A stretch of 36,094 bases of DNA, from assembly GCA_003221045.1 (NCBI GenBank), contig QHUC01000048.1, positions 1 through 36,094 of the forward strand. Reading direction: 5' to 3'. The number at the start of each line of letters is the position of its first letter. Position 1 is the stretch's first letter. Made by a program: the position numbers and the translations under genes. This document shows, in pieces, positions 1 through 36,094 of the stretch. The notes under the pieces were generated by a model. It saw only the letters and a program-made list of their open reading frames with translations, had not been told where the DNA came from and made no database searches. The stretch comes from Gemmatimonadota bacterium (GTDB lineage Bacteria > Gemmatimonadota > Gemmatimonadetes > Gemmatimonadales > GWC2-71-9).

Positions 1-244
1 GGCGGCCTATCAGGCGCGCAAAGAGTACGCGTTCCGTGTGCACGCGGAGGCCTCGAAGCCGCAGATCCGCGCGGCTATCGAGGGGCTCTTCAAGGTGTCC
101 GTGACGGACGTCCGGACGCTGGTCGTGCGCGCCAGGCGGCGCACCGGCGGTCTGCGGGTGGCGCGCGCGGGCCGACGGCCGGCGTGGAAAAAAGCGATCG
201 TGACCCTCAAAGAGGGCGATACGATCCCCGTGTTCGAGGGCTGA
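1..244 (+). CDS. rplW: 50S ribosomal protein L23 (uL23), 3' part only
   Basis: This is the C-terminal part of L23; the start lies before the window. The frame is open from base 2 and ends at TGA 242-244. The visible sequence matches the family: KEYAFRVH, the helix around [18 protein letters not shown], then [12 protein letters not shown] and a final FEG. L23 sits at the exit of the peptide tunnel and is the docking site for trigger factor and SRP (family knowledge). It is followed one base later by rplB, the order expected in the S10 operon (rplC-rplD-rplW-rplB). Identification is secure; only the missing N-terminus limits it. Confidence 0.95.
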
Positions 245-245
245 T

Positions 246-1085
246 ATGGGTATCCGACAGTTCAAGCCGGTGACGCCGGCCACGCGGTTCCGCTCGGTGT
301 CGGACTTCGAGGAGATCACGAAGGGGACGCCGGAGAAGTCGCTCCTCGAGCCGCTGCGGGGCAGCGGGGGCCGGAACAACAAGGGTCACATCACGGCCCG
401 GTATCGGGGGGGCGGCCACAAGCGGCAGTACCGCCGCATCGACTTCCGGCGCGAGAAGTTCGGCGTGCCGGCGAAGGTGGCGGCGGTCGAGTACGACCCG
501 AACCGCACGGGGCGCATCGCGCTGCTGTTTTACGCGGACGGTGAGAAGCGCTACATCCTCGCGCCGAAAGGCCTTGCTGTGGGCGACACGGTGGTCTCCG
601 GACCGGGCTCGGACATCCGCGTGGGAAACACCATGCCGTTGTTCGAGATCCCGCTCGGCACCACGGTGCACAACGTGGAGCTCAAGATCGGGCGCGGCGG
701 CCAGCTCGCCCGGTCGGCCGGCACCGGCGTGCAGGTGGTGGCCAAGGAAGGCAACTACGTCACGCTGCGGCTCCGCTCCACGGAAATGCGTATGGTGCGC
801 GGCGAATGCCTCGCCACCATCGGCGAGGTGTCGAACGCAGAGCATGAGCTCTTGTCGGTGGGCAAGGCCGGCAAGAGCCGCTGGCTCGGGCGGATGCCCC
901 GCGTGCGGGGCGTCGCGATGAATCCCGTGGACCACCCGCTCGGCGGCGGTGAGGGCAAGTCGTCCGGCGGCCGGCCACCCACCAATCCCTGGGGGAAGGT
1001 CGAAGGGAAGAAGACTCGGCACAAGAAGAAGTCGTCGACGAAGCTCATCGTGCGCGGACGCAAGCGCGGGAAGGCGACGCAATAA
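246..1085 (+). CDS. rplB: 50S ribosomal protein L2 (uL2)
   Basis: Full-length L2 of 279 residues, close to the usual 275-277. It starts with [14 protein letters not shown] and carries the family signatures [14 protein letters not shown] (about 56-69), AEVEYDPNR-like [16 protein letters not shown], and the C-terminal [16 protein letters not shown] block that contains the conserved His of the peptidyl-transferase region. The end is rich in Lys and Arg ([12 protein letters not shown]). L2 binds 23S rRNA and is needed for subunit joining (family knowledge). The stop TAA shares its last base with the A of the rpsS start codon, so translation is probably coupled. No damage is visible. Confidence 0.97.
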
Positions 1086-1522
1086 TGGGACGCTCGGTCA
1101 AGAAGGGGCCGTACGTGGAGCCCTCGCTCATGGTGAAGATCCAGGCCTTGAACGACAAGAACGAGAAGAAGGTCTTCAAGACCTGGTCGCGACGCTCGAC
1201 GATCACGCCTGACTTCGTGGGGCACACGCTCGCGGTGCACAACGGGAACAAGTTCATCCCGGTGTACATCACGGAGAACATGGTCGGCCACAAGCTCGGC
1301 GAGTTCGCCGCGACGCGCCTGTTCCGCGGGCACTCGGCCAAGGGCTCGGCGCAGGAGCGCGAAGAGGCCGCCGCGGCCTGCCGGACGCCTACGCCATCCT
1401 GCGCTTCTCGAAGAAGCTGGCGGCGAAGCAGATCCACAAAGTGCTCAAGTCGGCGGTGGCGAACGCCGAGCAGCGGGCGCTGCGTGAGAACCAGGCGCTG
1501 GACGTGGACCACCTGCGCGTGA
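1085..1522 (+). CDS. rpsS: 30S ribosomal protein S19 (uS19), stop codon lost at a probable deletion
   Basis: The first ~90 residues are a normal S19: [30 protein letters not shown], the [25 protein letters not shown] core and RGHS. S19 binds the head of the 30S subunit near the A-site tRNA. After about residue 92-97 (base ~1365) the frame should stop, but it runs on for ~48 residues of a non-S19, Arg/Ser/Thr-rich sequence to TGA 1520-1522. That tail is rplV read in the wrong frame. So the S19 stop, the intergenic space and the start of L22 are missing between about 1350 and 1380. The 145-residue product drawn here is therefore unlikely to be the native protein. Whether the loss is real or an assembly error cannot be told from the sequence. 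Confidence 0.85.
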
Positions 1523-1782
1523 ACTACGCCGTCGTGAACGAAGGGCAGACGCTCAAGCGCTTCACCCCGGCCGCGATGGGCCGGGCGACGCCGATCAAAA
1601 AGCGCACGAGTCACATCGAGATCCGGGTGGCGGGCGAAGCGGAATCACGCGCACCCAAAGTCCAGCCCGCCAAGGCCGAGGCGAAAGCCCCGCCCGTGAG
1701 GGCGGGGACCAAGAAGGGCAAACCCACGCGCGCCAAGAAGGCTGCGGGCTCCAAGTCCAAGACGAAGAAAGAGAGCAAGTAA
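1441..1782 (+). CDS. rplV: 50S ribosomal protein L22 (uL22), N-terminus missing
   Basis: The L22 frame is recognisable from about 1372-1381 ([21 protein letters not shown]) and continues through [26 protein letters not shown] and the loop [17 protein letters not shown] that lines the exit tunnel. The family's first ~35 residues (start codon, SPRKxRLVVDLIRG region) are not present; upstream is the end of S19. The only start codon in frame is a GTG at 1441, which would cut into the core, so the annotated start is a makeshift. After the core comes a ~50-residue Lys/Ala/Pro-rich tail that most L22 proteins lack; it contains a perfect DNA hairpin at 1688-1707. The stop TAA is followed at once by the GTG of rpsC. 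Confidence 0.85.
1688..1707. repeat. Perfect 8-bp hairpin inside the L22 tail
   Basis: The arms CCCCGCCC (1688-1695) and GGGCGGGG (1700-1707) are perfectly complementary around a GTGA tetraloop. The hairpin is within coding sequence, in the low-complexity tail of L22. It resembles the palindromes in the L5 extension (4137-4214) in being an in-frame GC hairpin within a non-conserved tail. No T-run follows, so it is not a classical terminator. Confidence 0.7.
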
Positions 1783-2442
<660 letters not shown>

Positions 2443-2446
2443 GTCC

Positions 2447-2860
2447 ATGCTCGCACCGAAGCGCGTCAAGTTTCGGAAGCGGTTCAAGGGCCGCACCAAG
2501 GGCATGGCCACGCGCGGTAACACCGTGGCGTTCGGCCACTACGGGCTCATGGCGCTCGAGCCGGGCTGGATCACGAACCGCCAGATCGAGGCGTCACGCG
2601 TGGCGCTCACGCGCGAGATGAAACGCGGCGGCAAGGTGTGGATCCGGCTCTTCCCGGACAAGCCGATCACCAAGAAGCCCGCCGAGACGCGCATGGGAAA
2701 GGGCAAGGGGAATCCGGAGGGCTGGGTGGCGGTCGTCAAGCCCGGGCGCGTGATGTTCGAGCTCGAGGGCATCGCGGAGGACTTGGCGCGGCAGGCCTTG
2801 GGGCTCGCGGCGGCTAAGCTCCCGATCAAGTCGAAGTTCGTGCGGCGGGAGGAACGGTAG
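2447..2860 (+). CDS. rplP: 50S ribosomal protein L16 (uL16)
   Basis: Complete L16 of 137 residues: [26 protein letters not shown]-like [16 protein letters not shown], the [41 protein letters not shown] block and a [20 protein letters not shown] end. L16 contacts the A-site tRNA elbow and helps organise the peptidyl-transferase centre. The next gene, rpmC, starts on the base after the stop. Confidence 0.97.
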
Positions 2861-3061
2861 ATGGCGACGAAAAAGCCCGAGGCGCTGCGCGAGATGAAGA
2901 ACGAGGATCTCGAGCAGCAGCTGGTGGTGCTGACCGAGGAGCGGTTTCGGCTGGGGTTCCGCCGGGCCACCGAGGCGCTGCCGAACCCGATCCAGCTGCG
3001 CAGGATCCGGCGCGAGATCGCGCGGATCAAGACCATTCTGAGAGAAAGGGCTCAGGGATGA
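2861..3061 (+). CDS. rpmC: 50S ribosomal protein L29 (uL29)
   Basis: A 66-residue two-helix protein with the family pattern: [14 protein letters not shown] near the start, [17 protein letters not shown] in the middle, and [22 protein letters not shown] at the end. L29 sits beside L23 at the tunnel exit. Its stop overlaps the rpsQ start (ATGA at 3058-3061), so the two are probably translationally coupled. Confidence 0.95.
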
Positions 3062-3306
3062 GGGGGCGGCGCAAGGTTCGCACCGGCGTGGTGGTGAGCG
3101 ACAAGATGCAGAAGACGGTCACGGTGTCGCTCGTGCGCCGGTTCGCGCACGGGTTCTACGGCAAGCAGATCGTGCGCACCAAGCAGGTCGCCGCGCACGA
3201 CGAGCAGGGCGCCAAGGCGGGGGACACGGTGCGGATCGTCGAGACCCGTCCGCTGTCCAAGACCAAGCGGTGGCGGGTGGTCGAAATCGTCGAGCGCGCG
3301 AAGTAG
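3058..3306 (+). CDS. rpsQ: 30S ribosomal protein S17 (uS17)
   Basis: An 82-residue OB-fold protein: [22 protein letters not shown], then a basic hairpin loop, [34 protein letters not shown]. This is the standard S17 pattern and length. S17 binds helix 11 and helix 7 of 16S rRNA early in assembly. The start overlaps the rpmC stop by 4 bases. Confidence 0.96.
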
Positions 3307-3324
3307 CGGGAGGGGGAGGGGACC

Positions 3325-3693
3325 GTGGTACAGCAGGAATCGATTCTCAAGATCGCGGACAACTCGGGCGCGCGGCGCGCGCTCGTGATCCGGGTGCTCG
3401 GCGGATCCAAGCGCCGGTACGCAGGGCTCGGCGACATCGTCGTCGTGGCCATCAAGGACGCCATTCCCACGGGCCAGATCAAGAAGGGCGAGGTGGCCAA
3501 GGCCGTGATCGTCCGCACGGCCAAGGAGACCAAGCGGCGGGACGGCTCCTACATCCGGTTCGACGAGAACGCCGCGGTGCTCATCACGGACCAGGGCGAG
3601 CCTCGGGCGACCCGCATTTTCGGACCGGTGGGGCGCGAGCTGCGCGAGAAGCGATTCATGAAAATCGTGTCGCTCGCGCCGGAGGTCATCTGA
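3325..3693 (+). CDS. rplN: 50S ribosomal protein L14 (uL14)
   Basis: Complete L14, 122 residues, starting at GTG 3325. The family start V-Q-Q-E-S with [21 protein letters not shown] is clear, followed by [42 protein letters not shown] and [26 protein letters not shown] purine-rich stretch (GGGAGGGGGAGGGG, 3308-3321) just upstream provides a strong ribosome binding site in the 18-base gap after rpsQ. Confidence 0.97.
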
Positions 3694-3694
3694 C

Positions 3695-4090
3695 ATGAAG
3701 CCGCTGGTCTTCAAGAAGAGCCGCCGGGCGGCCGCTCGAGGCCAGGAGCCCGAGCGCCACAAGATGCACATCGCCAAGGGCGACACCGTGCGCGTGATCT
3801 CCGGCGAGCATCGCGGCAAGGAGGGCAAGGTCCTCCGGGTGTTCCCCAAGGAATTCCGGGTGGAAGTGGAAGGCGTGAACATCGTGAAGAAGCACAAGCG
3901 GGCCGCGTCGGCGAACGAGGAGAGCGGCATCATCGAGCTGACGGCGCCGATCGCCGCGTCGAAAGTGATGCTGCTCGACCCGAAGTCCGGCGAACCCACA
4001 CGAGTGCGGCGGCGCCTGGACAAGGACGGAACGGCAGAGCGGGTGGCGGTGAAGTCGGGCCAGCCGATCCCGCGCGTGAAAGCGAAATAG
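3695..4090 (+). CDS. rplX: 50S ribosomal protein L24 (uL24) with short N-terminal extension
   Basis: The KOW-domain core starts at about residue 24 ([28 protein letters not shown]) and continues with [14 protein letters not shown] and [20 protein letters not shown]. The usual protein is ~105 residues; this one is 131 because of about 23 extra basic N-terminal residues. I keep the upstream ATG because GGAGGT at 3681-3686 lies 8 bases before it; the ATG at 3764 would give a more standard protein but has no such site. L24 initiates assembly of the 50S subunit (family knowledge). Confidence 0.93.
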
Positions 4091-4092
4091 TC

Positions 4093-4923
4093 ATGGCGGA
4101 TACCAAGGAAAAGGAACCCAAGCAGGGTCGCGCGGCTGACCCCGGGGCCGTGCCCCGGGGTGAACCGGCGGCCGAGCAACCCGCGGTTGACCCCGGGACG
4201 ACGCCCCAGGGTCAGGAGCCGAAGGTCGCCGACGTCGCCCCCGCGGAGGCCCCGGCGGCGCCCAAGCCGAAGCAGAAGGAAAAGCAGAAAGGCAAGAAGC
4301 CGGCAGAGGGCAAGCCGGCCGCTCCGGCCGAGCCTGAAGGCCCGCCGCCCGAGCCGGCTCCGCGCGCCCGGCTGCTCGACTACTACGAGCGGCAGGTGCG
4401 AGCGAAGCTGACCCAGCAGTTCGGCCTGAAGAACCCGCACCAGATCCCGAAGCTCGTGAAGATCGTGCTCAACGTCGGGATGGGGGACGCCACGAAGAAC
4501 CCGAAGGGGCTCGAGGCCGCCGTGGCCGAGCTCGGCGCGATCTCGGGCCAACGGCCCGTGGTCACGCGGGCGAAGAAGTCGATCGCGAACTTCAACCTGC
4601 GGCAGGGCATGGCCGTGGGGTGCGCGGTGACGCTCCGCGGCGGCCGGATGTTCGAGTTTCTGGACCGGTTCATCAGCGTCGCCGTGCCGCGGATGCGCGA
4701 CTTCCGCGGGCTGCCGACCGACAGTTTCGACGGTCACGGGAACTACACGATCGGCATCAAGGAGCAGATGATCTTCCCGGAGATCGACTACGACAAGGTC
4801 GAGAAGATCCACGGGATGGATATCACGTTCGTGACGAGCGCCGGCCGGGACGACACCGCGCTGGCCCTGCTGCGCGAGCTGGGGATGCCCTTCCGGGGCG
4901 AAGCCCCGGTCGCGGTCGGTTAA
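4093..4923 (+). CDS. rplE: 50S ribosomal protein L5 (uL5) with a ~90-residue low-complexity N-terminal extension
   Basis: The L5 core occupies about residues 92-276: [45 protein letters not shown]-like block, [51 protein letters not shown] and [26 protein letters not shown]5 links the 5S rRNA and the P-site tRNA. The usual length is ~180; the extra N-terminal ~90 residues are rich in Ala, Pro, Lys, Glu and contain a twice-repeated DPG..P.G.EP-like unit encoded by two 27-bp palindromes (4137-4163, 4188-4214). I see no start codon in frame close to the core, so the extension appears to be translated. Confidence 0.93.
4137..4163. repeat. 27-bp palindromic element, copy 1, in the L5 extension
   Basis: The arms ACCCCGGGGC and GCCCCGGGGT form a perfect 10-bp stem around a CGT loop. 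A second element of the same length, 21 of 27 bases identical by eye, begins 51 bases (17 codons) later. Both are in frame and encode variable linker sequence, as expected for a mobile or duplicated palindrome tolerated within a disordered region. Confidence 0.7.
4188..4214. repeat. 27-bp palindromic element, copy 2, in the L5 extension
   Basis: The related palindrome TGACCCCGGG...CCAGGGTCA has two stem mismatches, so it is a decayed or diverged copy of 4137-4163. It encodes [10 protein letters not shown] where copy 1 encodes [10 protein letters not shown]. Confidence 0.65.
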
Positions 4924-4940
4924 GGGGGAGAGTCCGGGTC

Positions 4941-5126
4941 ATGGCCAAGAAGGCGTGGATGGAGAAGGTCAAGCGGAAGCCGAAGTTCAAGGTGCGGGCG
5001 TACTACCGGTGCCAGCGCTGCGGGCGCAGTCGCGGCACGCTCCGGAAGTTCAAGCTGTGCCGCATCTGTTTCCGGGAGCTCGCGCTGCGCGGGGAGATTC
5101 CCGGCGTGCGCAAGGCCAGTTGGTAA
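4941..5126 (+). CDS. rpsN: 30S ribosomal protein S14 type Z (uS14)
   Basis: A 61-residue zinc-type S14: [29 protein letters not shown], then [28 protein letters not shown]. The four cysteines (CQRC at about 24-27 and CRIC at about 40-43) form the zinc site of the short S14 class. The start ATG 4941 is preceded by AGGGGGAGAG (4923-4932). The longer open frame upstream in this phase is the antisense-like read-through of rplE and not part of the gene. Confidence 0.96.
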
Positions 5127-5141
5127 AGGACGGTACGCGAG

Positions 5142-5537
5142 ATGAGTGTGACTGATCCCGTCGCCGATATGCTCACCCGGGTGCGCAACGCCTGCCAGGC
5201 GGGGCACCGTCGGGTCGACATGCCGGTGTCGAAGCTGAAAGTCGAGATTGCACGGCTGCTCCGCGACAACCACTACGTCCAGGACTTCAAGGTGCTGGAC
5301 GACGGGCGTCACGGACTGCTGCGGCTGTATCTCAAGTATCACAACGACGCCCCCGTGATCCGCGAGCTGCAGCGCGTGTCCGCGCCCGGCCTGCGGCGCT
5401 ACGTGAAGGCGCGCGAGATCCCGCGCGTCAAGAACGGCCTCGGCATGGCGATTCTCTCCACGCCGCAAGGCCTGATGACGGACCGCGAAGCCCGCACCGC
5501 CCGCGTGGGCGGTGAGCTCCTCGCAGTGGTCTGGTAG
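5142..5537 (+). CDS. rpsH: 30S ribosomal protein S8 (uS8)
   Basis: Complete S8, 131 residues: SVTDPVADMLTRVRNA, the VSKLKVEIARLLRDNHYV helix, PGLRRYVKAREIPRVKNGLGMAILSTPQGLMTDREAR and GGELLAVVW. These are the N- and C-terminal domains that bind helix 21 of 16S rRNA. In other bacteria S8 also represses the spc operon by binding its mRNA; nothing in this sequence was checked for that. Confidence 0.96.
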   Translation: MSVTDPVADMLTRVRNACQAGHRRVDMPVSKLKVEIARLLRDNHYVQDFKVLDDGRHGLLRLYLKYHNDAPVIRELQRVSAPGLRRYVKAREIPRVKNGLGMAILSTPQGLMTDREARTARVGGELLAVVW

Positions 5538-5545
5538 GGGACCTC

Positions 5546-6094
5546 ATGTCGCGTATCGGCAAGAAGCCGGTCCCGCTACCGAAGGGCGTCACGGCCCAGC
5601 TCGAGGGACTGCGAGTCACGGTGAAGGGCCCCAAAGGCGAGATCAGTCGGCTCGTCCACCCCGAGCTCGCCGTGGCTTTGGACGGCGAATCGATCGTCGT
5701 GCGACGTCCCTCCGACGAGGCCCGGCACAAGGCGCTCCATGGTCTGACCCGGACGCTCATCGCGAACATGGTCGACGGAGTCACGAAGGGGTTCGCCAAG
5801 GCGCTCGAGATCCAGGGGGTGGGATACAAGGCGGAGCCCAAGCCGTTCGGCGTGCAGCTCGTCGTCGGGTTCTCCCACCCGGTGCCGTATCACGCGCCGA
5901 CCGGGATCAAGATCTCGGTCGACAACAACGTCGTGGTGAAAATCGAGGGCGTGGACAAGGAGCTCGTGGGGCAGGTGGCGGCGGAAATCCGCGCCATCCG
6001 GCCGCCCGAGCCGTACAAAGGCAAAGGAATCCGCTACGCGGGCGAGCAGGTCCGGCGCAAAGCCGGCAAGACCGCCCAAGCGGCGGCGAAATAA
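5546..6094 (+). CDS. rplF: 50S ribosomal protein L6 (uL6)
   Basis: Complete L6, 182 residues: SRIGKKPVPLPKGV, VTVKGPKGEISR, HGLTRTLIANMVDGVTKGFAKALEIQGVGYKAE, and the second repeat ending RPPEPYKGKGIRYAGEQVRRKAGKT. L6 sits near the factor-binding site of the large subunit. Spacing to rplR is 3 bases. Confidence 0.97.
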   Translation: MSRIGKKPVPLPKGVTAQLEGLRVTVKGPKGEISRLVHPELAVALDGESIVVRRPSDEARHKALHGLTRTLIANMVDGVTKGFAKALEIQGVGYKAEPKPFGVQLVVGFSHPVPYHAPTGIKISVDNNVVVKIEGVDKELVGQVAAEIRAIRPPEPYKGKGIRYAGEQVRRKAGKTAQAAAK

Positions 6095-6097
6095 CCC

Positions 6098-6469
6098 ATG
6101 CGCAAGATCCATAAGATCCGGACGCAGGCACACCGCCGTCTTCGGCGTCACCTGCGCGTGCGACGCAAGGTCGCCGGTAGTGCGGAGCGTCCTCGGCTGG
6201 TGGTGTTCCGCTCGTCGAAGCACATCTACGCCCAGGTCGTGGACGATGTCCGGGGAGTGACGCTGCTGGGCGCCGGAGACACCTCCGAAGGCATTCAGGT
6301 GGATGGCAAGGGAAAGACTGCCCGGAGCTTCGCGCTCGGACGCTTGATCGCCGTCAAGGCCAAGGAGAAGGGGATCGGGAAAGTTGTGTTCGACCGAGGT
6401 GGGTACCAGTATCACGGGCGCGTGAAGGCCGTGGCCGACGGCGCCCGCAAAGGCGGATTGGAGCTCTAA
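6098..6469 (+). CDS. rplR: 50S ribosomal protein L18 (uL18)
   Basis: Complete L18, 123 residues: a basic N-terminus ([38 protein letters not shown]), then [54 protein letters not shown]18 binds 5S rRNA. The last base of its stop is the first base of the rpsE start codon. Confidence 0.97.
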
Positions 6470-7233
6470 TGGAGAACGAGCAACAGCCGAGGCCGTCAGG
6501 CCCGGCGACGATCGAACCCGCCGAGACGGCACACGCCGGGGGCGAGGGCCGTCCCGAGGAGCGACCGGCAGGTGCCGGCGGTAGTAGCAGTGGTGGCAGT
6601 GGTGGCGGCGGTGGGGGCGGTGGGGGCGGTGGCGGGGGCCGCGGCCGGGGTGGTCGCGGCGGCGGTCGGGGCGGTGGTCGGGGGCGCGGGGGCGAGCGAC
6701 GCGACTCGAGCGACCGCCAGCGCGAGGGCGACGGCCTGGTCGAGAACGTGATCTCGATCAACCGTGTGGCCAAGGTGGTGAAGGGTGGGCGGCGGTTCGG
6801 CTTCAACGCCCTCGTGGCGGTGGGCGACGGGCAAGGGCGCGTCGGCATCGCGACCGGGAAGGCGAACGAAGTCAGCGAGGCGGTGCGCAAGGCGGTCGAG
6901 GCCGCCCGGCGGCGAATGATGGAGGTACCCCTCGCCGGCACCACCATCCCACACGAGATCGTGGGTCACCACGGCGCGGGGCGGGTGCTCTTGAAGCCCG
7001 CGGCGTCCGGGACCGGCGTCATCGCCGGGGGTCCCGTGCGCGCCGTGCTCGAGTGCGCCGGCGTCCGCGACATCTTGACCAAGAGTCTCGGCTCCACCAA
7101 CCCGCACAACATGGTTCGGGCCACGGTGGACGCCCTGCAGCACCTCACCACGGCGCGCCGGGTGGCAAAGGAGCGCGGCGTCGAGCTCGAAGCGATTCCG
7201 TACAAGGCCCGGCAGGAGGCGGTCCGTGGCTAG
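6469..7233 (+). CDS. rpsE: 30S ribosomal protein S5 (uS5) with Gly/Arg-rich N-terminal domain
   Basis: The S5 core runs from about residue 86: [46 protein letters not shown]-like block, [35 protein letters not shown] and [16 protein letters not shown]. Normal S5 is ~165-170 residues; this one is 254. The extra part is a polar stretch (1-34), a poly-glycine run (about 42-57) and an RGG-type region (about 58-77, [18 protein letters not shown]). No alternative start occurs between the glycine run and the core except codons inside the fold, so the extension is probably translated. S5 is a fidelity protein at the mRNA entry side. Confidence 0.94.
6573..6696 (+). repeat. GGN-rich simple repeat encoding the S5 glycine/RGG tract
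   Basis: The stretch is an almost uninterrupted series of GGC, GGT, GGG and CGG/CGC codons. It encodes the poly-Gly and RGG region of S5. Such tracts are prone to slippage and to assembly errors, so the exact glycine count should be treated with caution. Confidence 0.8.
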
Positions 7234-7492
7234 AAAACCGCCCACGCGGAAATACCGCAAGCGCAAACCTGGGCGCGACCGGCCCCTTCCCCCTCCAGGA
7301 AAGGGCGAGCTGCGGATTCTCCAGGTCCGCTCGGGGATTGGTCGGCCCGCCTTGGAACGCCGTACGCTCGAGGCGCTGGGCCTCAAGCATCATCAGGACG
7401 CCGTGGTGAAGAAGGACCATCCATCGCTCCGCGGCATGCTCCGTCAGGTGCGCCACCTCGTCGAGGTGACGCCCGCGAAGGCTAAGGATTAG
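7226..7492 (+). CDS. rpmD: 50S ribosomal protein L30 (uL30) with basic N-terminal extension
   Basis: The L30 core is at about residues 28-84: [53 protein letters not shown]. The family is ~60 residues; here ~27 basic residues ([16 protein letters not shown]) precede it, giving 88. The chosen GTG 7226 overlaps the end of rpsE by 8 bases; a start closer to the core is not obvious. Confidence 0.92.
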
Positions 7493-7494
7493 CA

Positions 7495-8040
7495 ATGGCG
7501 AAGGCGAAAGCGAAACCGAAGACACGGGCGAAAGCCAAGCCACGGGCGAGGGCCAAACCCCGGGCGGAGGCGGCGGAGGCGTCGAAGGCGGAGCCACCGC
7601 ATCTCACTCTCTCGAGCCTGCGGCCGCCGCGCGGTTCGCACCGCGCCCGCATCCGCAAGGGACGGGGGCCCGGCTCGGGCATCGGGAAGACCGCCGGTCG
7701 GGGCGGGAAGGGCCAGACCGCGCGGCAGGGCGGCAAGGTGCGTCCCGGCTTTGAGGGCGGCCAGATGCCGCTCATTCGCCGGATTCCCAAGCGCGGGTTC
7801 ACGAACCCGTTCAAGCAACCGGCGCAGGTCGTCAACGTGCGACATCTCGGCCAGCTCGCCGAAGGGGTCGAGGTCACCCCCGAGACGCTGTTCGGCGCCG
7901 GGCTCGTGCGCCGGCCTGACCGTCCGGTTAAGCTCCTGGGGATGGGCGACGTGCAGCGGAAGTTCAGCGTGAAGGGCGTCACGGTGTCCGCGTCCGCCCG
8001 CTCGAAGATCGAGCAGGCGGGCGGCACGATCGCGAGCTGA
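7495..8040 (+). CDS. rplO: 50S ribosomal protein L15 (uL15) with Lys/Ala/Arg-rich N-terminal tail
   Basis: The L15 core begins at about residue 36: HLTLSSLRPPRGSHRARIRKGRGPGSGIGKTAGRGGKGQTAR, GFEGGQMPLIRRIPKRGF, then VNVRHLGQL and KLLGMGDVQRKFSVKGVTVSASARSKIEQAGG. The first ~35 residues are repeats of KAKPRARAKP type, giving 181 residues in total against ~145-150 usually. L15 is a late assembly protein of the 50S subunit. secY follows after 4 bases. Confidence 0.95.
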   Translation: MAKAKAKPKTRAKAKPRARAKPRAEAAEASKAEPPHLTLSSLRPPRGSHRARIRKGRGPGSGIGKTAGRGGKGQTARQGGKVRPGFEGGQMPLIRRIPKRGFTNPFKQPAQVVNVRHLGQLAEGVEVTPETLFGAGLVRRPDRPVKLLGMGDVQRKFSVKGVTVSASARSKIEQAGGTIAS

Positions 8041-8044
8041 TCCG

Positions 8045-9257
8045 ATGACCGCGCCCCGCCTGCCCAATCTGTTCAAGGTGCCGGAGCTGAAGGAGAAGAT
8101 CCTCTTCACGCTCCTGTGCTTGCTGGTGTACCGCGTGGGAGCGCACATCGCGACCCCCGGCGTCAACGTCCAGGCGCTCGCCGACTTCCTCCACAACCAG
8201 GGTCAGGGCACGCTCTTCAGCCTGTACGACCTGTTTGCGGGCGGCAGCTTCGGGCGGGCGACGGTATTCGCGCTCGGCATCATGCCGTACATCTCGGCGA
8301 GCATCGTGTTCCAGCTCGCCGCGCCGGTGTTCCCGATCGTCGAAAAGATGCAGCGGGACGAGGAGGGTCGGAAAAAGCTCACGCAGTGGACCCGCTACCT
8401 CACCGTCGTGCTGTGCTTGTTCCAGGCCTACGGCTACGCGCTGTTCACGGAGCAGATCCCGGGCGCCGTGGGGCATCCGGGGTTCTTCTTCCGACTCACG
8501 ACGGTGCTGACCCTCACCACCGGCGGTGTGTTCGTGATGTGGCTGGGTGAGCAGATCACGGAGCGGGGCATCGGCAACGGCGCGAGCCTCCTCATCTTCT
8601 TCTCGATCGTGGAGCGGATCTGGCCGGAGACCATCCGGACGATCGACGCGCTGCAGGCGCACGCCCTCACCTTCCCGGTGCTCCTCCTCGTGCTGGCGAT
8701 CATGGTGCTGGTGGTCGCAGGCACCGTTGCCGTGACGGTCGCGGCGCGGCGCATTCCGATCCAGATCCCGCGCAAAGTCATGGGGCGGGGACGGATCCGC
8801 GAGGGACAGAAGACGTTCATCCCCCTCCGCCTCAACACGGCGAACGTGATGCCCATCATCTTCGCGCAGTCGATCATCATCGTCCCGGGGACGTTCGCCG
8901 CCTTCAGCGGCAATCAGACGCTCAAGCACCTCGCCGAGTACTTCAAACTTGAAGAAGCAGGGCGGCTTCATTCCCGGCGTGAAGCCCGGAGCCGCGACGG
9001 CGGACTACATCGACGAAGTGCTGTCCCGCATCACGTTCCCGGGCGCCATCTTCCTGACGATCATCGCGATGCTGCCGATCGTGGTGTCGAACATCCTGAA
9101 CATGCCGTTCGGCTTCGGGGGCACCGCGCTGCTCATCGTCGTGGGCGTGGCGCTCGATACGGTCCAGCAGGTACAGCAGCACCTCCTGCTGCGACACTAC
9201 GACGGCTTCATGAAGGAAGGGCGCGTCAAATTCCGCGGTCGCCGGCAGTACATGTAG
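8045..9257 (+). CDS. secY: Protein translocase subunit SecY, broken near 8945 by an apparent deletion with frameshift
   Basis: The first ~300 residues are good SecY: NLFKVPELKEKILFTLLCLLVYRVGAHIATPG, the plug and TM2 region, TLTTGGVFVMWLGEQITERGIGNG, RRIPIQ and the loop GNQTLKHLAEYF. At about 8945 the frame changes. In the +1 frame relative to it, 8946-9257 encodes NLKKQGGFIPGVKPG, the TADYIDEVLSRIT helix, FGFGGTALLIVVGVALDT and KFRGRR, the normal C-terminus. Between AEYF and NLKKQGG the family has ~35 more residues including a transmembrane helix (VFFTYFYT region); they are absent. So this is a deletion not divisible by three, and not a simple indel. Because SecY is essential and single-copy, an assembly error is the likeliest cause. 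Confidence 0.9.
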
Positions 9258-9264
9258 GGATCCT

Positions 9265-9828
9265 GTGTTTATCCTCCTGCTGGGCGCGCCGGGCTCGGGC
9301 AAGGGCACGCAGGGAAAGATTCTCGCCGAGCGGCTCGGGCTCCCGAAGATCACGACCGGTGACATCCTGCGCGCGGCGGTGAAATCCGGGACGGCGCTGG
9401 GCCTCGAGGCCAAGAAGTTCATGGATGGGGGCAAGCTCGTACCCGACACCGTCATCCTCTCGCTCATCAAGGAAGAGCTCGCGAAGCCCGAAGCCGCGCA
9501 GGGCGCCATCTTCGATGGCTTTCCCCGCACGGCCGCGCAGGCGGCGCTGGTCGACGCCACGCTGGGCGAGCGCGGACAGCGCTTGAACCACATCGTGCTG
9601 CTCGACGTGCCGGAGGAGGAGCTGATCCGGCGCATGACGGGTCGGGCGGCGCAGGAAGGGCGCTCGGACGATACGCCGGACGCCATCAAGACGCGCCTGC
9701 AGGTGTACCAGCGCGACACGGCTCCCCTCGTCGCGCACTACGCCGAGCGGGGGATCGTGCACCGCGTCCCGGGGATCGGGGCCGTGGACGACATCGCCAC
9801 CGAGATCAAGCGGGTCATCGGACGATGA
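9265..9828 (+). CDS. adk: Adenylate kinase, short-LID form
   Basis: A 187-residue nucleoside monophosphate kinase that interconverts ATP + AMP and 2 ADP. The P-loop GAPGSGKGT is at 7-15, TTGDILR at 30-36 and DGFPRT at 84-89. The LID segment (about 127-137) is the short type without zinc cysteines. The start is GTG 9265, 7 bases after secY. The stop overlaps the map start (ATGA at 9825-9828). secY-adk-map is the classical order. Confidence 0.96.
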   Translation: MFILLLGAPGSGKGTQGKILAERLGLPKITTGDILRAAVKSGTALGLEAKKFMDGGKLVPDTVILSLIKEELAKPEAAQGAIFDGFPRTAAQAALVDATLGERGQRLNHIVLLDVPEEELIRRMTGRAAQEGRSDDTPDAIKTRLQVYQRDTAPLVAHYAERGIVHRVPGIGAVDDIATEIKRVIGR

Positions 9829-10586
9829 TCACCATCAAGTCCCCGCGCGAGATCGAAACGATGGCCGCCGCGGGCCGCATCGTGGCGGCAACACTCGCGG
9901 TGGTGGCCCAACACGTGCGACCCGGCGTGTCCACGGAGGAGCTCGATCGCGTCGCGGAGGACTTCATCCGCTCGCACCCAGGCGCCCGCCCCTCGTTCAA
10001 GGGGCTGTACGACTTTCCCGCCACGCTCTGCACCTCCCTCAACCAGGAGGTCGTGCACGGCATTCCCTCGCCGCGCCGTGTGCTCAAAGAAGGAGACCTG
10101 CTGAGCGTGGACGTCGGCGTGTGGCTGGACGGCCTGCACGCAGACTCGGCGGCGACGTTCCCGGTGGGCAAGGTGAGCCCCGAAGCCGAGCGGCTGCTCG
10201 CGGTCACCCGGCAGGCGCTGGCGGCCGGCGTGGCCCAGGCCCGCGCCGGCAATCACGTCGGGGACATCGGTCACGCCGTGCAGGAAGTGGCGGAGGGGGC
10301 CGGGTACTCGGTGGTGCGGGAGCTCGTGGGACACGGCATCGGGTCCGCGTTTCACGAAGACCCGCAGGTGCCCAACTACGGCAAGCCGAAGCGGGGTCCC
10401 CGGCTCGTCCCCGGTATGACGATCGCGATCGAGCCGATGGTGAATGTCGGGGGGGCCGAGATTCGGACCCTTGACGACAAGTGGACCGTGGTGACGGAAG
10501 ACGGCTCGCTCTCCGCCCACTTCGAGCACACGGTGGCCGTCGGTGAAAACGACACGCCGCCCCGGATTCTCACCAAGCCCGTGTGA
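9825..10586 (+). CDS. map: Methionine aminopeptidase type I
   Basis: A 253-residue M24 peptidase that removes the initiator methionine from nascent proteins. The five metal ligands are visible at D96, D107, H170, E203 and E234, in VDVGVWLDGLHADSA, GHGIGSAFHEDP, AIEPMV and FEHTV contexts. Length and ends are normal. It is the last gene of the ribosomal operon in this window. The usual next genes infA and rpmJ are not here; a hairpin repeat and the 3' end of a convergent gene follow. Confidence 0.96.
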   Translation: MITIKSPREIETMAAAGRIVAATLAVVAQHVRPGVSTEELDRVAEDFIRSHPGARPSFKGLYDFPATLCTSLNQEVVHGIPSPRRVLKEGDLLSVDVGVWLDGLHADSAATFPVGKVSPEAERLLAVTRQALAAGVAQARAGNHVGDIGHAVQEVAEGAGYSVVRELVGHGIGSAFHEDPQVPNYGKPKRGPRLVPGMTIAIEPMVNVGGAEIRTLDDKWTVVTEDGSLSAHFEHTVAVGENDTPPRILTKPV

Positions 10587-10589
10587 CGT

Positions 10590-10617
10590 GTAGGGGCGCA
10601 GCATGCCGCGCCCCTAC
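10590..10617. repeat. Dispersed hairpin repeat, copy A, between convergent genes
   Basis: The arms GTAGGGGCGC (10590-10599) and GCGCCCCTAC (10608-10617) pair perfectly around the 8-base loop AGCATGCC. The 24 bases 10591-10614 recur identically at 24439-24462. A second GCGCCCCTAC stands at 10626-10635 and contains the stop codon of the minus-strand gene. The element fills the 45-base gap between map and the convergent IMPase-FTCD gene. It may act as a two-way transcription stop, but no T-run is present. Confidence 0.8.
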
Positions 10618-30738: not shown

Positions 30739-31094
30739 CGCCGGGTCGCGGGCCGGGGTGGGAGAAGCTCGCCGAGGCCGTGGCTCAGCGCGTGTCCCCG
30801 ACCGCGATCGAGACGATCTATCTGTTTCGGCCGTGGAAGCGCGAGGGCCGCGAGTGGGGAACGGCGGTGGTGGCGTGCCGAGGCACCGACGCGGGTGACC
30901 GGTTGCGCGTCTATACCGCGCGCTACATGCTCATCGTGCGCGGGAAGGAGCGCGGCCAGTCCCGGGTCGAGATCGAGGAGACCGGTCTCTCGCCGGCGCA
31001 GGTGATCGCGCACGTCATGCAGGCGGCCGCCGAGCGGAGTGGGGACCCGGAGCCGCCGGTCGCGGTGGGCCCGGCGGTGTGGTATGAAGGTTGA
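30696..31094 (+). CDS. Protein of unknown function (up to 132 aa)
   Basis: Not recognised. After a Gly/Ala/Pro-rich start comes a core WEKLAEAVAQRVSPTAIETIYLFRPWKREGREWGTAVVACR, a beta hairpin LRVYTARYMLIVRGKERGQSRVEIEETGL and a helix SPAQVIAHVMQAAAE. The core looks like a genuine small alpha/beta domain. ATG 30696 overlaps the previous gene by 43 bases; I found no better start, so the true N-terminus is uncertain. The end overlaps the Fur-family gene by 11 bases. Confidence 0.6.
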   Translation: MGAGAGAGGDRPPVAPGRGPGWEKLAEAVAQRVSPTAIETIYLFRPWKREGREWGTAVVACRGTDAGDRLRVYTARYMLIVRGKERGQSRVEIEETGLSPAQVIAHVMQAAAERSGDPEPPVAVGPAVWYEG

Positions 31095-31548
31095 CGGCGC
31101 CAAGCTGCTCGAGGAGTTCCGCCGGTATCTGGGGGATCACAACCTGCCGGCGACCCACCAGCGCCTGGCGGTGGCCGAGGCCGTCTTCTTTGCCGGAGAG
31201 CACCTGTCCGCCGAGGACGTCGGCCGGCGGGTCGCCAAGCGCGGGGTGGCGGTCGGCACCGCGACCATTTACCGAACCCTGGACCTCCTGGTCCGGGCGG
31301 GCCTGGCCAAGGAGCACGAGTTCGGCGAGGGCTTCAAGCGGTACGAGCCGCTCGCGGCGGGCCAGGTGCACGAGCATTGTATTTGCTCCTCGTGCGGCCG
31401 GGTGACCGAGTTCTCGAACGACCGGCTGGAACGGATGATCGCCCTCTTGGCGGAGGAAGTCGAGTTCCGGCCCGATCACCATCGGTTGGAGATCTATGGC
31501 GTGTGCCGGAGTTGCCAGCAACTGAACCCTTTAGCGCGCGCGAGGTGA
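31084..31548 (+). CDS. Fur-family metal- or redox-dependent regulator
   Basis: A 154-residue Fur-like protein. The winged-helix part reads [63 protein letters not shown]; the dimerisation part has [16 protein letters not shown] and [10 protein letters not shown], i.e. two CxxC pairs for structural zinc. The regulatory site is only partly conserved (HEHC in place of HDH), so Fur, Zur or PerR function cannot be assigned. I took ATG 31084; a longer frame begins at 31039. Its TGA lies within the Shine-Dalgarno of the next gene (GAGGTGA 31542-31548). Confidence 0.9.
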
Positions 31549-33689: not shown

Positions 33690-35486
<1,797 letters not shown>

Positions 35487-35498
35487 GCCGAATTGTGC

Positions 35499-35524
35499 AC
35501 GTTGACCCGAGTTCGGGTCAACGT
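35499..35524. promoter_or_regulatory. 26-bp palindrome between ggt and murQ, operator-like
   Basis: The 12-base arms ACGTTGACCCGA (35499-35510) and TCGGGTCAACGT (35513-35524) are perfectly complementary around a central GT. TTGACC inside the left arm and TAACTT (35526-35531) are spaced by 18 bases, so the palindrome covers a possible murQ -35 box. It lies 12 bases from the ggt start on the other strand. It fits a dimeric repressor or MerR-like activator site; the regulator is unknown. Confidence 0.6.
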
Positions 35525-35552
35525 CTAACTTGGGGGCCATCCGACAGCCTTC

Positions 35553-36094
35553 ATGACCGGCCCCTCTCCCGACTACCGCGACCCGCGGCTCACCGAGCAG
35601 CGCAATCCCCGCACCCAACGCATCGACGTTGCGTCGACGCTCGGAATCGTGGACCTGATCAACGTGGAAGATGCGACCGTGGCGCCGGCGGTGCACGCCG
35701 TGCGAGCCGAGCTGGCGCGCGCGATCGACCTCGTGGTGACCGCGTTCCAGCGGGGCGGGCGACTGATCTACGTGGGCGCCGGGACGTCCGGCCGGCTCGG
35801 CGTGCTCGACGCGAGCGAGTGCCCGCCGACGTTCGGTACGCCACCGGAGATGGTCGTCGGGGTGATCGCCGGTGGCTATCCGGCGCTCGTGAAGAGTAGC
35901 GAAGGGGCCGAGGACGACGTGAACGCCGGGATGGCGGCGATGGACCAGACGCGCGTCGCACCCGCCGACTTCGTGCTCGGCATCGCGGCGAGCGGCACGA
36001 CGCCGTTTGTGCGTGCCGCCCTGTCTCGCGCGCAGACGATCGGCGCAGCGACGGGGCTCGTCTCTTGCTACGATCCGCCGCGCGTGCTCGTCGA
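35553..36094 (+). CDS. murQ: N-acetylmuramic acid 6-phosphate etherase, 5' part
   Basis: The first 180 residues of MurQ; the window ends within the gene. LTEQRNPRTQRID, LINVEDATVAPAVHAVRAELARAID, GGRLIYVGAGTSGRLGVLDASECPPTFG and VIAGG with EGAEDDVNAG are characteristic. The SIS domain SGxTP block reads AASGTTPFV (usual SGRTPYV). The enzyme splits the lactyl ether of MurNAc-6-P during cell-wall recycling. The start ATG 35553 follows the palindrome by 28 bases; no Shine-Dalgarno is evident. Identification is secure. Confidence 0.94.
   Translation, partial: MTGPSPDYRDPRLTEQRNPRTQRIDVASTLGIVDLINVEDATVAPAVHAVRAELARAIDLVVTAFQRGGRLIYVGAGTSGRLGVLDASECPPTFGTPPEMVVGVIAGGYPALVKSSEGAEDDVNAGMAAMDQTRVAPADFVLGIAASGTTPFVRAALSRAQTIGAATGLVSCYDPPRVLV

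Follow-up and report, generated by a model that had tools for sequence, protein, structure and literature searches.

The window, that is, the whole stretch of 36,094 nucleotides that was analysed, ends in two divergently oriented genes. The first, ggt (33690-35486, minus strand, start codon ATG at 35484-35486), encodes a gamma-glutamyltranspeptidase (PF01019 match of the translation, E 2e-174) of the lipoprotein type, its translated N terminus, MRRPLVLSLLLLGACARG, being lipoprotein-like. The second, murQ (MurNAc-6-P etherase), begins with the ATG at 35553 on the plus strand and extends to 36094, where its 3' part is cut by the window end; in the relatives it continues into anmK and then nagZ. 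For murQ and anmK the names derive from reading of the sequence by eye and from the original prediction made for this DNA, no family match being so named; in a profile search the murQ homologue of contig C4 gave matches to GKRP/SIS domains, and nagZ has a glycosyl-hydrolase-3 domain match. The corresponding neighbourhood of the same-genus genome G002 comprises ggt, murQ, anmK and nagZ, followed by convergent FHA-, PP2C- and kinase-looking genes (apart from ggt and the nagZ glycosyl-hydrolase-3 domain, all named by eye). Elsewhere in the window, reading by eye gave a Fur-like gene at 31084-31548 and, at 1-10600, a ribosomal-protein gene cluster with adenylate-kinase-like and methionine-aminopeptidase-like genes. 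The genome bin of the window also contains a second ggt-murQ-anmK-nagZ locus (L005 1-6000, G000:C4). The ggt of this C4 locus and that of the window differ at a fraction of 0.53 of their fourfold sites, so that the bin is probably a mixture of two species although its stated contamination is low (0.82).

The two genes are separated by only 66 bp (35487-35552), intergenic DNA short enough for overlapping divergent promoters. In this gap, between ggt on the minus and murQ on the plus strand, an inverted-repeat search located a strandless 26-bp palindrome (35499-35524) of the sequence ACGTTGACCCGA-GT-TCGGGTCAACGT. Its arms (35499-35510 and 35513-35524) are 12 nt each with a 2-nt gap and are 100% complementary. 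The original prediction had described exactly these arms and centre, a place near the ggt start and an overlap with a murQ -35 box, all of which agrees with our data: the palindrome begins at 35499, close to the ggt start codon, and its left arm carries TTGACC at 35502-35507. It is the single perfect inverted repeat of the window that has arms of 12 or more and a gap no longer than 10, and Markov-1 shuffles of the window (n = 20) contained on average 0.1 such repeats. Real DNA of the same genus, however, contains 30 of them in 1.137 Mb, or about 0.95 per 36 kb. The palindrome by itself is therefore unremarkable, and its meaning depends on its conservation. A terminator was rejected: no T run follows the arms, and the palindrome lies upstream of both predicted starts.

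Promoter motif of the lineage

In literature searches for promoters or start-site maps of Gemmatimonadota, none of the papers listed mentioned Gemmatimonadota or Gemmatimonas. A motif was derived de novo by two-block EM from 445 upstream regions of G002 (1.137 Mb, 982 genes called). The best motif was cTTGcc-N18/19-TAnnTT, i.e. TTG-N20/21-TAnnTT, with a likelihood per sequence of 0.417, as against 0.23 for Markov-1 sequences and 0.318 for the reverse strands of non-divergent upstream regions; both of these controls yielded GC-rich noise only. Elsewhere in the genus, promoters have conserved -35 and -10 elements and more variable spacers. For scoring, a PWM was trained on 443 regions with the ggt-murQ locus excluded; the null distribution came from 3000 random 90-mers, and the 95th percentile of the upstream regions was 14.0.

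By this measure a lineage-consensus promoter is predicted on each strand of the ggt-murQ gap. The core of the left arm, TTGACC (35502-35507, plus strand), would be the murQ -35 box, followed after 18 nt by TAACTT (35526-35531, plus strand), which conforms to the genus motif; the combination TTGACC-N18-TAACTT scores 14.36 (null p 0.001), which exceeds that 95th percentile. The core of the right arm, TTGACC on the minus strand (35516-35521), would be the ggt -35 box, with CACAAT (35492-35497, minus strand), a mediocre match assigned by the PWM, as the -10 box 18 nt past it; TTGACC-N18-CACAAT scores 10.93 (null p 0.0097). Since both arms fit an independently found motif, we read them as -35 boxes of the usual kind, at the usual spacing. 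Between the predicted ggt -10 box and the ATG lie 5 nt, and the ggt mRNA would accordingly be leaderless or nearly so. Among the relatives the murQ -35 is TTGACC or TTGCCC and the ggt -10 is CACAAT, TACAAT, CAGTAT or CAGAAT, the ggt promoter reaching a PWM score of only 8.3 (p 0.056) in L072 and of 9.87 (p 0.019) in L080. Exact TTGACC-N17-19-TAACTT occurs in the window's own genome only at the ggt-murQ locus and at its C4 homologue, exact hexamers being too strict for a degenerate motif.

Among 79 divergent gene pairs of G002, 46 have predicted promoters on both strands, and the opposite predicted -35 boxes are most often 10-29 bp apart. Interleaved divergent promoters may thus be common in the genus, on offsets taken without a permutation control.

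Conservation of the palindrome

The nearest named relatives are soil Gemmatimonadetes MAGs. The sequence TTGACCCGNNNNCGGGTCAA stands beside ggt with zero mismatches in seven of the ten same-genus genomes (G000-G005, G009); G006 yielded neither murQ nor ggt, and G008 no ggt. Among 80 loci fetched by murQ (L066-L145), many of which belong to the same genomes as the G-numbered loci (e.g. L066 = G002:C67) and are not independent of them, TTGACC-N8-GGTCAA is exact in 14. All 14 fall among the 18 loci with a murQ identity of at least 79%, the four without the exact core being L069, L070, L071 and L096. A ggt match lies upstream of murQ on the opposite strand in 41 of 49 loci (L066-L112, L114, L128).

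Ten allele rows with adjacent genes were compared position by position; two of the rows, those of the window and of L072, come from different genomes and have the same 26-mer. The hexamer pairs are kept 6/6 in nine rows and 4/6 in G020, and 1 to 3 of the outer three pairs of the dyad are kept. Two or three inner pairs are kept in the genus, L072, L075/L078/G024 and G019, falling to 0-1 in L077, L080, G028 and G020. The hexamer pairs stay while the inner pairs break, so that the conserved object is TTGACC-N8-GGTCAA. In distant relatives (ggt about 55-65% identical) the right arm is absent and only a murQ-facing element is present, either GTTGCCCC-N18-CTAATTTAG or CGTTGACCG followed by AAATTTAG-like boxes, and divergent ggt and murQ occur without the palindrome in L070, L081, L086 and G035 (L163). 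Within the genus the palindrome is nearly unchanged while ggt differs at 0.24-0.57 of fourfold sites. The original prediction had made itself dependent on conservation upstream of murQ or ggt, and in close Gemmatimonadales relatives the palindrome is indeed conserved.

The 8-bp centre CGAGTTCG, which belongs to neither hexamer, has a pairwise identity of 0.969 over eight alleles from the genus (0.889 with G007), and four control spacers, few as they are, gave 0.49-0.81, gene 58 being the highest (0.81). Left out of these controls were the purA rows of W and G24, the rows of G24 for genes 60 and 62, G24 being from another genus, and the row of G7 for gene 58, where it has no sequence. In whole-gap controls the best 35-bp windows elsewhere reached 0.57-1.00. 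Measured against the four control spacers, conservation of the centre exceeds what two plain promoters require, and an additional binding protein is for this reason possible.

Further copies of the site, expected if it belonged to a regulon, were sought at genome scale. With up to 3 mismatches, the window's own genome matched at the palindrome, at the C4 homologue, once in an ORF (C89) and once on C44. In the 1.137 Mb of G002, the pattern with N8 spacing and at most 2 mismatches had two intergenic matches, one of them the palindrome site; spacing 8 came top of a scan from 0 to 20 (2 intergenic, 13 coding), but these matches are not taken as operators because almost all are coding. Summed over 10 genomes the pattern gave 211 forward matches versus 114 for the reversed control, a difference without weight, as the control loses the dinucleotides. 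A regulon was rejected: pattern searches of the own genome, 61 relatives and 10 genus genomes gave no second conserved site.

Loci with ggt and murQ apart

In six loci (L068, L069, L071, L073, L076, L096) murQ does not stand beside ggt; the dyad is broken in all six, and TAACTT is kept. Five of them were scored (L076 was left out): L096 has a score of 10.39, and the other four (L068, L069, L071, L073) have 13.15-15.04, owing to a TGG displaced by one base. As these five detached loci keep a predicted promoter with the dyad broken, murQ needs no dyad for its promoter.

On the other side of the split, G007, where ggt is separated from murQ, has a decayed copy with the right arm intact and the left arm and centre changed, and three ggt-only loci (G001, G004, G009) keep the full dyad without a murQ promoter. 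The nearest relative of G001 is G005 (fourfold-site difference 0.24) and that of G004 and G009 is G002 (0.28-0.29), both with murQ adjacent; the split may therefore be recent in these three. Their full dyad favours an operator, a point weakened by the possibly recent separation.

In L073 (G001) a xylose-isomerase-like TIM barrel gene (PF01261) and a second gene lie between ggt and murQ (1405-2977), and L076 (G009) has a ggt-murQ gap of similar size with flanks similar to those of L073. The G001 ggt is closest to that of G005, which is without the insert, and this suggests exchange between lineages.

Discussion

In overlapping divergent promoters, two promoters of opposite direction lie between divergent genes and their polymerase footprints overlap. 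The palindrome, its pattern of conservation and the agreement of both arms with the independently found promoter motif were computed directly, and we consider it likely, judging from the sequence, that the palindrome represents such a pair, with predicted start sites: two TTGACC -35 hexamers of the lineage's housekeeping promoter would stand back to back, one on each strand. Together with TAACTT, the left arm would direct rightward transcription into murQ-anmK-nagZ, and the right arm, together with CACAAT, leftward transcription into ggt. As each -35 box lies within the spacer of the opposite promoter, an RNA polymerase bound at one promoter should keep a second from the other. Simultaneous binding appears unlikely because both promoters occupy the same stretch, their predicted starts, near 35538 (+) and 35486 (-), being about 52 bp apart, and the two promoters are probably mutually exclusive for RNA polymerase. 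Overlapping divergent promoters are a known kind of arrangement and ggt-murQ would be a further case of it, the -35 pair forming here, within the genus, a perfect 26-bp palindrome.

A related class is that of the bidirectional promoters of Escherichia coli and Salmonella, in which pseudo-symmetric DNA binds RNA polymerase either way, giving divergent transcription with mutual exclusion, and the -10 element is shared; a distance of 18 bp between the starts is the most frequent, distances of 10 and 23 bp also being common (Warman et al. 2026, PMC12825309; PMC10268837). In E. coli this competition is reported to make a difference only if one of the two directions is strongly active (PMC12825309). 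The ggt-murQ region resembles such promoters in its near-symmetric DNA and in the predicted exclusion of opposing polymerases, but differs in that its -35 boxes are interior and interleaved, its -10 boxes lie outside and the predicted starts are about 52 bp apart. A strict bidirectional promoter was thus rejected: the -10 boxes are separate (35526-35531 and 35492-35497), and with the -35 boxes interior and the -10 boxes outside, ggt-murQ falls outside this class. The motif itself resembles the primary promoter of Bacteroidota, TAnnTTTG (-7) / TTTG (-33) (PMC7366714), in the TTG upstream and the TAnnTT downstream. It is unlike that promoter in lacking a conserved final TG in TTG-N20/21-TAnnTT, and the resemblance is one of sequence.

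The original prediction proposed that the palindrome may be an operator through which one regulator controls both genes. Such a site would bind a dimeric repressor or activator encoded elsewhere and lie over both promoters, co-regulating ggt and murQ either alone or in addition to the -35 role of the arms. The perfect 12-bp dyad speaks for it, as do the inner arms and centre, conserved in the genus beyond the control spacers, and the three ggt-only loci that retain the full dyad. Nevertheless, more distant genomes lose the inner pairs and keep the hexamers, no other conserved site was found in the genus genomes searched, and the dyad is broken at the separated murQ loci, the five scored ones of which keep their promoter, so a shared operator is not needed by murQ. 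The search for further palindrome sites that had been proposed as a check brought no second conserved site to light in the own genome or the relatives. Moreover, reading by eye recognised no regulator gene in the ggt/murQ/anmK/nagZ cluster, an adjacent MerR gene included; literature searches on murQ/anmK/nagZ regulation and on the MurR operator led nowhere. We therefore regard an operator as unlikely: of the operator-like layout the palindrome and its conservation stand, while the arms are accounted for by two divergent -35 boxes. A combination, in which the arms serve as -35 boxes of mutually exclusive promoters and the conserved centre is read by a putative regulator that would switch polymerase between gamma-glutamyl-peptide processing by secreted GGT and cytoplasmic peptidoglycan-sugar recycling by MurQ-AnmK-NagZ, seems to us quite unlikely.

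A MerR-type layout had also been suggested. MerR activators bind between incorrectly spaced hexamers, and both under SoxR-type control at PsoxS/soxR (PMC12825309) and at ggt-murQ a dyad occurs in a divergent promoter region, here near the -35 boxes. The ggt-murQ spacers, however, are not stretched but measure 18 bp, the genus norm (TTG-N20/21-TA), and the dyad, centred at 35511.5, misses the centres of both spacers (35516.5 and 35506.5) by 5 bp. With the dyad off-centre between normally spaced elements, and no MerR gene recognised alongside, a MerR-type activator site was rejected as extremely improbable. A chance palindrome or the leftover of an inverted duplication, now without function, would agree with the finding of such repeats about once per 36 kb in the genus, but hardly with a sequence near-constant there while ggt differs at 0.24-0.57 of fourfold sites, nor with the preservation of the hexamer pairs in other genera; we hold it to be very improbable.

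From the point of view of two divergent promoters, a striking palindrome becomes explicable by promoter anatomy once the lineage's own consensus is known. The motif TTG-N20/21-TAnnTT provides a working promoter model for an uncultured soil genus of Gemmatimonadota, applicable to other intergenic regions. The physiological coupling of GGT with peptidoglycan recycling is one that we only infer; if the exclusion between polymerases is true, ggt and cell-wall recycling would be linked in these bacteria by competition and not by a dedicated regulator.
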